From the NCBI GenBank assembly GCA_029007315.1, contig JAQXHO010000162.1:1-33654 (forward strand): a stretch of DNA of 33,654 nucleotides, given 5' to 3'. This DNA is from Oscillospiraceae bacterium (lineage in GTDB: Bacteria; Bacillota; Clostridia; Oscillospirales; Ruminococcaceae). How positions within the stretch are numbered: the stretch's first letter is position 1; each line of letters opens with the position of its first letter. This document shows positions 4,703-8,005 of this stretch, piece by piece. Below the pieces are notes generated by a model. The model was given only the letters and a program-made list of their open reading frames with translations. It made no database searches and was not told the DNA's origin. The position numbers and the translations under genes are program-made.

Positions 4703-5605
4703 TTATCTGTTTCTTTCTGCCTTCAGAAAAGCCTCAGGTATACACTCAATAATATCACGTGGAAGCATGGCGGTTTGACTGAATTTTTCTGCTGCAATAT
4801 CTCCTGCCATTCCGTGAAGGTATACTCCTGCTTTTGCTGCGTCCTGCGGAGTGAGCTTCTGTGCAGCAAATGCAGCTGTCATTCCTGCAAGAACATCTCC
4901 GCTTCCTCCGCGGCTCATTCCGGGATTGCCTGTGGTATTAATGAAAATCTCATTTTTATAACCCACGAGAGTTCCGTGGCCCTTCAATACTATCACAGCA
5001 CCCGGTAATTGTTTCATCATATTATTAATAGTATACACCCTGCTTCTCTGAACTTCCTGTACAGACACTTTAGCTATCCGAGCCATTTCACCCGGGTGAG
5101 GAGTAAGAATGACAGGTTCTTCTCTGTCTGCAATAATATCTATGCAGCCGGCTGCTGCATTTAGACCATCTGCATCTATGATAAGAGGACATTTTGTTAA
5201 ACGGATGACATTTTTTGTCATAAGAACAGTTTCTTCCGTTAAACCAATTCCGCAGCCTATCAGCACAGCGTCAGACTTGCTTATCATGCCGCAGAGAATA
5301 TCTTCATTGCCGTGCCATGTAATAAAACCCTTATCATCGGTTTTCAATGGCAGAAACATTGCCTCAAAACAGCGTGATGACAATGCCGGTATATTTTCCT
5401 CTGCCGTTGCAGCAGTTACAAGTCCTGCACCGCTTCTCAGGGCAGAATATACTGACATCAGTGAGGCACCAGGCATTCTTCTGCTTCCTGTAATGCAAAG
5501 AAGTCTTCCGAAATCTCCCTTATGTGAGTCCTTCCTTCTTTCCGGAAAAAGACTGCATATTTCAGAAAAAGCAATCTCTCTGATATTTCCGTCTGTAAAC
5601 TCCAT
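4703..5605 (-). CDS. nnrD: ADP-dependent NAD(P)H-hydrate dehydratase (YjeF C-terminal domain only)
   Basis: HKGDFGRLLCITGSRRMPGASLMS, VILTPHPGEMARI and TGNPGMSRGGSGDVLAGMTAA motifs. Start set at ATG 5605 (the track uses GTG at 5608) because an AAGGAGGAAC Shine-Dalgarno lies just upstream. Confidence 0.88.
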   Translation of the reverse strand: MEFTDGNIREIAFSEICSLFPERRKDSHKGDFGRLLCITGSRRMPGASLMSVYSALRSGAGLVTAATAEENIPALSSRCFEAMFLPLKTDDKGFITWHGNEDILCGMISKSDAVLIGCGIGLTEETVLMTKNVIRLTKCPLIIDADGLNAAAGCIDIIADREEPVILTPHPGEMARIAKVSVQEVQRSRVYTINNMMKQLPGAVIVLKGHGTLVGYKNEIFINTTGNPGMSRGGSGDVLAGMTAAFAAQKLTPQDAAKAGVYLHGMAGDIAAEKFSQTAMLPRDIIECIPEAFLKAERNR

Positions 5606-5654
5606 CACAGTTCCTCCTTATAACTGTAAACTCCATCACAGTTCCTCCTTATAA
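5593..5654. repeat. Perfect 31-bp tandem duplication (2 copies) covering the RBS and start of nnrD
   Basis: CTGTAAACTCCATCACAGTTCCTCCTTATAA at 5593-5623 and again at 5624-5654. Confidence 0.95.
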
Positions 5655-5687
5655 TAAGAAAACGCTCATCACACAGAATGAGCGTTT
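5653..5687 (-). terminator. Rho-independent terminator after the sortase gene
   Basis: Minus strand AACGCTCAT-TCTGTGTG-ATGAGCGTT followed by TTCTTATTAT. Confidence 0.65.
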
Positions 5688-5710
5688 CTCAGAATCAAGA
5701 TGATATTTTT

Positions 5711-6562
5711 CTATCGCTCACCCAGACATTTTGCGAAAACAACACATCGCATACCGTCGTTATTCCCTGAATAACAGGTTTGCAGACCTATTATGCGGTC
5801 ACCGTATTCAGGAAGTTCATCATCTTTGCAATAAAGGACGTTTGCGGTAGATTTTATATTACGTACATATTTTTCAAAATCGTTTTTGTCAAGCTTCAGA
5901 TCAGTTGGCTGGGACGGAAGCCAGTATGAGAAATCCGCACCGGATTCACCGTAAAGCACACCGGCTGAAATAACTTCATAAAGATATCGCTTGTCCTCAG
6001 AGGCAACTTCAAAATATGGATGTTCTTTGCCCCATTCTTCATTCAAAAAATTCTTTATTCCGTGAAACATAGAGCCGTCACCCATATTATGGCCATAAAG
6101 AAGAGTCAGATTTTTATCATCAAGATCGCCACGGAAATCCTCATAAATACAGCCGGCGAAAGAACTGTTTCCCTTCCAGTCAGAATGTATGTACTGTTCG
6201 TTGCTGACTCCGTGAACTACCGGGTAATTGATTACTGTATCCTTTATGTATATCCAGCCTGCTACATCATCATTTACAGATTTATACTGTGCAACATTGG
6301 AGATATCCAGTTTCATTTCATAATCTATTTCCTTTTCAGTAGTAGTTGTTGTTGTAGTTGCCTTAGTTGTTGTAACAGTAGTTGTGGTAGTTGTGACAGT
6401 TGTTTCGGAAGTGGGAAGCTCGACATTCATCTGCTGTATATCACGGCTTCCTCCGCATTGCTTAGACATAATGAAAAAAACAATAGCCACAGCGGAAACG
6501 GCAAGAAACATAACAAAAAGCATTACCCTGACAATAATATTTGTTTTCTTTTTCTCTTTCAT
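5711..6562 (-). CDS. srtB: Class B sortase with N-terminal TM helix and Thr-rich linker
   Basis: TM segment VMLFVMFLAVSAVAIVFFIM, linker TTTTTTVTTTKATTTTTTTE, LYGHNMGDGSMF (catalytic His region), IGLQTCYSGNNDGMR (catalytic Cys and downstream Arg). Confidence 0.88.
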   Translation of the reverse strand: MKEKKKTNIIVRVMLFVMFLAVSAVAIVFFIMSKQCGGSRDIQQMNVELPTSETTVTTTTTTVTTTKATTTTTTTEKEIDYEMKLDISNVAQYKSVNDDVAGWIYIKDTVINYPVVHGVSNEQYIHSDWKGNSSFAGCIYEDFRGDLDDKNLTLLYGHNMGDGSMFHGIKNFLNEEWGKEHPYFEVASEDKRYLYEVISAGVLYGESGADFSYWLPSQPTDLKLDKNDFEKYVRNIKSTANVLYCKDDELPEYGDRIIGLQTCYSGNNDGMRCVVFAKCLGER

Positions 6563-6577
6563 TTTTTACTCTCCATT

Positions 6578-8005
6578 TTAAAAGCCGTTTAAATTATTCT
6601 TTATCATAATATTCGGATAATTGTAGTACGCATAATTCAGATCAACATCTGTTTCAATGCCGGGAATTCTGCCTGTACATGAATACTGCCATATTCCATA
6701 GTTTCTGCTAAATAAAGGCACCTGCACATTATAGTGAGCAATCCATGTATCAAAACTTTCAAAAATCTCAGGTTCTATTCGTGTGTTTAAGAAATTAACA
6801 TAGCTGCACAGAGAAACATAATACCCGTATGATTCCATCCGGTCGCAGAAGGCATGAATAATAGCGGTGCTTTCTTCTGGTTCAAGTTCGTATTGCGCAC
6901 TTGTTTCATAGTCAAAGAAAATGGGATATTCGAATTTGTAATCCTTTATTACTTCGTAAAACACATCAGCTTCTTTTAAAGCGTCTTCGGGAGTCGTAGC
7001 GTAACTAAACCAGTATGCACCGCAGTCAATGCCGGCTTCCTTTGCTTTTTTCATATTAATATCGAAATACTTGTCTTCCTGATTGATATGCTTGCCATAA
7101 CCGGCACGGATGATTGCAAATTCCACACCACTCTCTTTAACTGCTTTCCAGTCAACCTGCCCCTGATAAACTGATACATCTATACCGCTTGCCAACGGCG
7201 GACGTGTTATAACTGTAGTTGTTACAGTAGTTGTGGAAGTCACTGAAGTGGTATCATCAGAATCAGAAGTTATCTGAGAAACCATTGTTTTGCTTGATGA
7301 AGATATAACCGGTTTGCTTGTTGTTGTCTTTGCATTTGTGGTATTTGTTTTGGTTATCGTTGTAGTTTTTGCGGTTGTGGTATTTGTTTTGGTTGTCGTC
7401 GTAGTTTTGGCAGTTGTGGTATTTGTTTTGGTTGTCGTCGTAGTTTTGGCAGTTGTGGTATTTGTTTTGGTTGTCGTTGTAGTTTTTGCGGTTGTGGTAT
7501 TTGTTTTGCTTGTGGTTGTAGGCTTTGCTGTTGTTACGGTAGTCTGTGGCATATCAGAGGAACTGCTGGTTGCAGAAGTAATTTCTGAAGTGGTTTGTTT
7601 GGTTGTGACTGCTGTTGTTACCGGTGAATATGAACCGTCACGCTTTGGTATGTATCCGCTGAATTCTATTCCGGCACCCTGCAATGAGTATATTTCAAGG
7701 AAATATACTGCATCAGTCAGATTTATCACCTTATCCGGAATAACATCATAAAAACGCCAGTTTCTTTCAGTAACCAGCGGTTCAAGACCAGCAGAATATT
7801 CAGAATAATACTTTAATACTTCTCCTGCAACAGAAAGCCAGTTTTCAATCTGGGCATTTGAAGTATTTTCATCAGTCAGCAGGATAACATCTTCTGATAT
7901 AAATTCTGTTTCCTCTTCCTCTGCATTAACGCTATAGCATACAGCTGATGCAAAAAACACTAAACTTGTAAGCGCAGATAAAAATCGCCTGCAATTTAAT
8001 CGCAT
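6578..8005 (-). CDS. Secreted GH25 lysozyme (muramidase) with Thr-rich linker and N-terminal dockerin-like segment
   Basis: Signal peptide; ASGIDVSVYQGQVDWKAVKESGVEFAIIRAGYG ... EYPIFFDYET ... YGIWQYSCTGRIPGIETDVDLNY are GH25 signatures; about five 13-aa TTTAKTTTTTKTN repeats precede the domain. Confidence 0.92.
   Translation of the reverse strand: MRLNCRRFLSALTSLVFFASAVCYSVNAEEEETEFISEDVILLTDENTSNAQIENWLSVAGEVLKYYSEYSAGLEPLVTERNWRFYDVIPDKVINLTDAVYFLEIYSLQGAGIEFSGYIPKRDGSYSPVTTAVTTKQTTSEITSATSSSSDMPQTTVTTAKPTTTSKTNTTTAKTTTTTKTNTTTAKTTTTTKTNTTTAKTTTTTKTNTTTAKTTTITKTNTTNAKTTTSKPVISSSSKTMVSQITSDSDDTTSVTSTTTVTTTVITRPPLASGIDVSVYQGQVDWKAVKESGVEFAIIRAGYGKHINQEDKYFDINMKKAKEAGIDCGAYWFSYATTPEDALKEADVFYEVIKDYKFEYPIFFDYETSAQYELEPEESTAIIHAFCDRMESYGYYVSLCSYVNFLNTRIEPEIFESFDTWIAHYNVQVPLFSRNYGIWQYSCTGRIPGIETDVDLNYAYYNYPNIMIKNNLNGF
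7338..7532. repeat. 39-bp in-frame tandem repeat (about 5 copies) encoding TTTAKTTTTTKTN
   Basis: GTGGTATTTGTTTT recurs at 7338, 7377, 7416, 7455 and 7494, exactly 39 bp apart. Confidence 0.93.

Follow-up and report, generated by a model that had tools for sequence, protein, structure and literature searches.

A perfect 31-bp tandem duplication of the nnrD ribosome-binding site and start codon in an Oscillospiraceae bacterium, probably recent and near-neutral

The window analyzed here, a stretch of 33,654 nucleotides from an uncultured, Ruminococcus-like Oscillospiraceae bacterium, encodes a standalone NAD(P)H-hydrate dehydratase, NnrD (Table 1). Its assignment is firm, as the protein passed both curated cut-offs with 217 bits (E = 3e-64) against TIGR00196 (cut-off 129.85) and 183.7 bits against PF01256 (cut-off 27). 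nnrD is a metabolite-repair gene and its product a housekeeping repair enzyme. The gene upstream is class B sortase-like, with TIGR03064 as its best model at 132.7 bits, under the cut-off of 153.75, and a Pfam Sortase match of 37.0 bits, over the cut-off of 26.6. It is followed at its 3' side by a terminator-like hairpin, whose foot lies 4 nt from a 31-bp tandem array at the nnrD start. We found no promoter-like sites in the gap between the sortase-like gene and nnrD, so that nnrD may rely on read-through transcription past the hairpin. A new promoter made by the duplication was considered and rejected, as the array contains no promoter-like site and the six sites in 2.2 kb correspond to chance expectation. 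Likewise, two Rfam matches were disregarded, both being sub-threshold, including BTnc201, which overlaps the hairpin and scored 23.1 bits against a cut-off of 105. Elsewhere in the window, a GH25-like gene (6578-8005) carries an array of 39-bp units at 7320-7534 (5.5 copies, 90% matches), whose period is a multiple of three and which probably encodes a Thr-rich linker; this genome contains many such ACA/ACC-rich arrays.

Table 1 Features at the nnrD locus, in window positions.
Feature	Position	Strand	Model or remark
nnrD, standalone NAD(P)H-hydrate dehydratase, 300 aa	4703-5605	-	TIGR00196/PF01256
24-codon out-of-frame ORF from the upstream copy	5562-5636	-	44-nt overlap with nnrD
Downstream 31-bp copy	5593-5623	-	bears the in-frame nnrD start
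Upstream 31-bp copy	5624-5654	-	SD AAGGAGG and GTG/ATG
Terminator-like hairpin 3' of the sortase gene	5659-5688	-	
Class B sortase-like gene upstream of nnrD	5711-6562	-	TIGR03064 best model, Pfam Sortase

For the array at 5593-5654, TRF reported a period of 31, 2.0 copies and 100% matches on the minus strand, and the unit TTATAAGGAGGAACTGTGATGGAGTTTACAG was recovered exactly at both sites, back to back. Each unit holds the Shine-Dalgarno (SD) sequence together with the start codon and the initial 4 1/3 codons of nnrD, the SD and ATG thus being present twice, once per copy. In both cassettes the SD measures 7 nt and so does the spacing, and GTG and ATG follow the SD in a common frame, giving two adjacent in-frame starts per cassette. 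The nnrD start is the second ATG (5605-5603), directly preceded by the same-frame GTG at 5608. Since the copied unit includes the SD, the start codon and these first codons, nnrD stays intact via the downstream copy. Translation from the upstream ATG (5636-5634) yields MEFTVIRRNCDGVYRRKYQRDCFF*, with its stop at 5564-5562, inside nnrD. These data bear out the preliminary description, which had listed a perfect 31-bp tandem duplication of the nnrD ribosome-binding site (RBS) and start, with the upstream ATG out of frame and opening a 24-codon peptide. The 24-codon ORF is most likely a by-product of the duplication, a decoy start whose peptide has no function of its own.

With up to three mismatches allowed, the unit was found at no other site in the whole assembly (2.16 Mb, 194 contigs). 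A scan for duplications covering 1.17 Mb, ~54% of the genome, revealed no other exact period-31 duplication and, low-complexity-coding-like arrays aside, one other exact tandem duplication with a period of at least 20, a 22-bp repeat at L176:323-366, which excludes coincidence as the source of the 31-bp repeat. This 22-bp duplication (G000:C118) is located just before an apparent RBS and ATG, and a 26-bp unit repeated about three times lies directly before an apparent RBS and start on the reverse strand at L127:7072-7147 (G000:C69). With these two further short repeats preceding apparent starts, leaders here seem to tolerate such insertions.

We compared the locus with its counterparts in relatives, a check proposed in the preliminary description. 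nnrD was detectable in 14 of the 16 genomes of the genus, this genome included, and every genus-mate nnrD start that could be read exhibited a single SD and a single start, G008 having a different, weaker leader and the G012 start being read in one comparison only. The paired-SD pattern matched this genome alone (1/16). By inspection, several genus-mates have a similar hairpin before nnrD, closely followed by one SD and start. Beyond the genus-mates, none of the 79 nnrD loci from other genomes carried a tandem duplication near the nnrD start (period 12-89, -180 to +60); an alignment-based search of genome contigs had yielded 80 nnrD loci. In one genus-mate, at L035 (G013:C100), the NnrD match lies inside a longer 557-aa frame, consistent with a fused epimerase-dehydratase, the others read being standalone. 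At the protein level, NnrD of this genome carries a lineage-specific extension, MEFTDGN (5585-5605), starting ~7 residues before most genus-mates; as most of these begin that much later, the NnrD N-terminus is variable and not tightly constrained.

The copies are identical and the arrangement is absent in the relatives examined, suggesting that the duplication is most likely recent and lineage-specific, in agreement with the recent event proposed earlier. Loss of a duplicate in sister lineages would be conceivable but less likely, the nearest named relative, an uncultured Ruminococcus sp. (L180), sharing only 68% NnrD identity.

Two adjacent, near-identical copies with no equivalent in relatives are what a single mutational event would leave behind. 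We therefore consider it quite probable that one recent small tandem duplication, adding a single extra 31-bp copy at the 5' end of nnrD, arose in this lineage and is neutral or slightly alters nnrD translation. The slipped-strand event offered as one reading in the preliminary description fits less well in its classic form, as we detected no flanking microhomology: the array is exactly 62 bp, with an extension of 0 on either side, leaving slippage between pre-existing short repeats unsupported. A polymerase pausing at the hairpin foot and then re-copying the adjacent 31 bp would fit an array that begins 4 nt from it; such an origin, through the hairpin or a template switch, is guesswork only.

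Whether the extra cassette has been selected for shifting NnrD output up or down is a separate matter, and such tuning appears unlikely. Ribosomes might begin at the decoy and traverse the real start out of frame, lowering the output, or the second SD might be better exposed and bring more ribosomes nearby, raising it. Besides the matching SD and spacing of both cassettes, the predicted cost of opening the nnrD start speaks for an effect, decreasing from 10.0 kcal/mol with one copy to 7.5 with two when the hairpin is included, and from 8.4 to 7.7 when it is left out. Relative to a one-copy version, opening the second start is thus predicted to take 0.7-2.5 kcal/mol less, but these small shifts are near the error of the method and vary with the stretch folded. 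Moreover, neither conservation nor recurrence was seen in the genus-mates and the 79 further nnrD loci. Overall, NnrD levels probably change modestly if at all, and as modeled the direction is unpredictable, with easier opening set against a decoy start drawing off ribosomes. The 31-nt distance between the loading sites is about one ribosome footprint. That the doubled start has been retained because its two loading sites tune NnrD, by ribosome queueing or second-site exposure, strikes us as very improbable.

A precedent for tuning comes from laboratory-evolved Escherichia coli, where a 38-bp duplication at the argB start region is among the upstream mutations that arose under selection (PMC6941894). 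Six re-tested argB-upstream mutations raised ArgB 2.6-8.2-fold, the six being left unnamed where these values are given (PMC6941894). The argB case resembles nnrD in that a short stretch was duplicated at the initiation region, within a few nucleotides of the start codon, with another gene and a hairpin lying upstream (PMC6941894). In contrast to nnrD, it arose under known selection and argB lacks a canonical SD (PMC6941894), whereas at nnrD a strong SD and start codon are themselves duplicated and the selection, if any, is not known.

An artefact of assembly, with only one copy being real, had been raised in the preliminary description and would be conceivable for a draft of 194 contigs, where an iterative assembler could carry over an error from a lower k. 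However, all 12 of the 12 detectable contig-end overlaps were exactly 141 bp, with no other length among 15-160, indicating a de Bruijn graph with k=141, well above the 62-bp array, such that single 141-mers span the array and its flanks. The lack of a second period-31 duplication in the 1.17 Mb scanned likewise argues against a length-specific artefact, and a systematic k-mer error was rejected on these two observations. We therefore regard an artefact as highly unlikely.

A phase-variation-like switch, turning nnrD on and off by changes in copy number, had been suggested as well. In its favor, tandem repeats can vary in copy number and 31 cannot be divided evenly by 3. We constructed versions with 1-5 copies in silico. 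In each of these, the last copy opened the complete 300-codon nnrD in frame, the earlier copies giving 20- or 24-codon peptides only, so that in no version was the gene out of frame or its start lost. The switch fails because the start codon sits inside the repeat unit, which keeps nnrD always in frame; the presence of only two copies and the housekeeping role of the enzyme also count against it, rendering this reading exceedingly improbable. In simple-sequence phase-variable genes, the repeats lie in the reading frame or promoter. nnrD shares with them a tandem repeat near the gene start with a unit that is not a multiple of three, but differs in that its array consists of two long copies, with the start codon inside the unit and a frame that cannot be shifted. 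This leaves quantitative tuning as the only possible effect. Finally, we give practically no credence to the 24-codon ORF as a functional leader peptide controlling nnrD, as, despite its good SD and its overlap with the nnrD start, its sequence results from reading the duplicated unit and nnrD in a shifted frame, and no comparable arrangement was found in the relatives examined.

Taken together, the nnrD duplication is genuine and ordinary, and probably recent and near-neutral, and it matters little outside gene calling. Small duplications that include the start codon are tolerated automatically, the gene being restored by whichever copy comes last, and a near-start repeat whose length is indivisible by three is by itself no evidence of phase variation.
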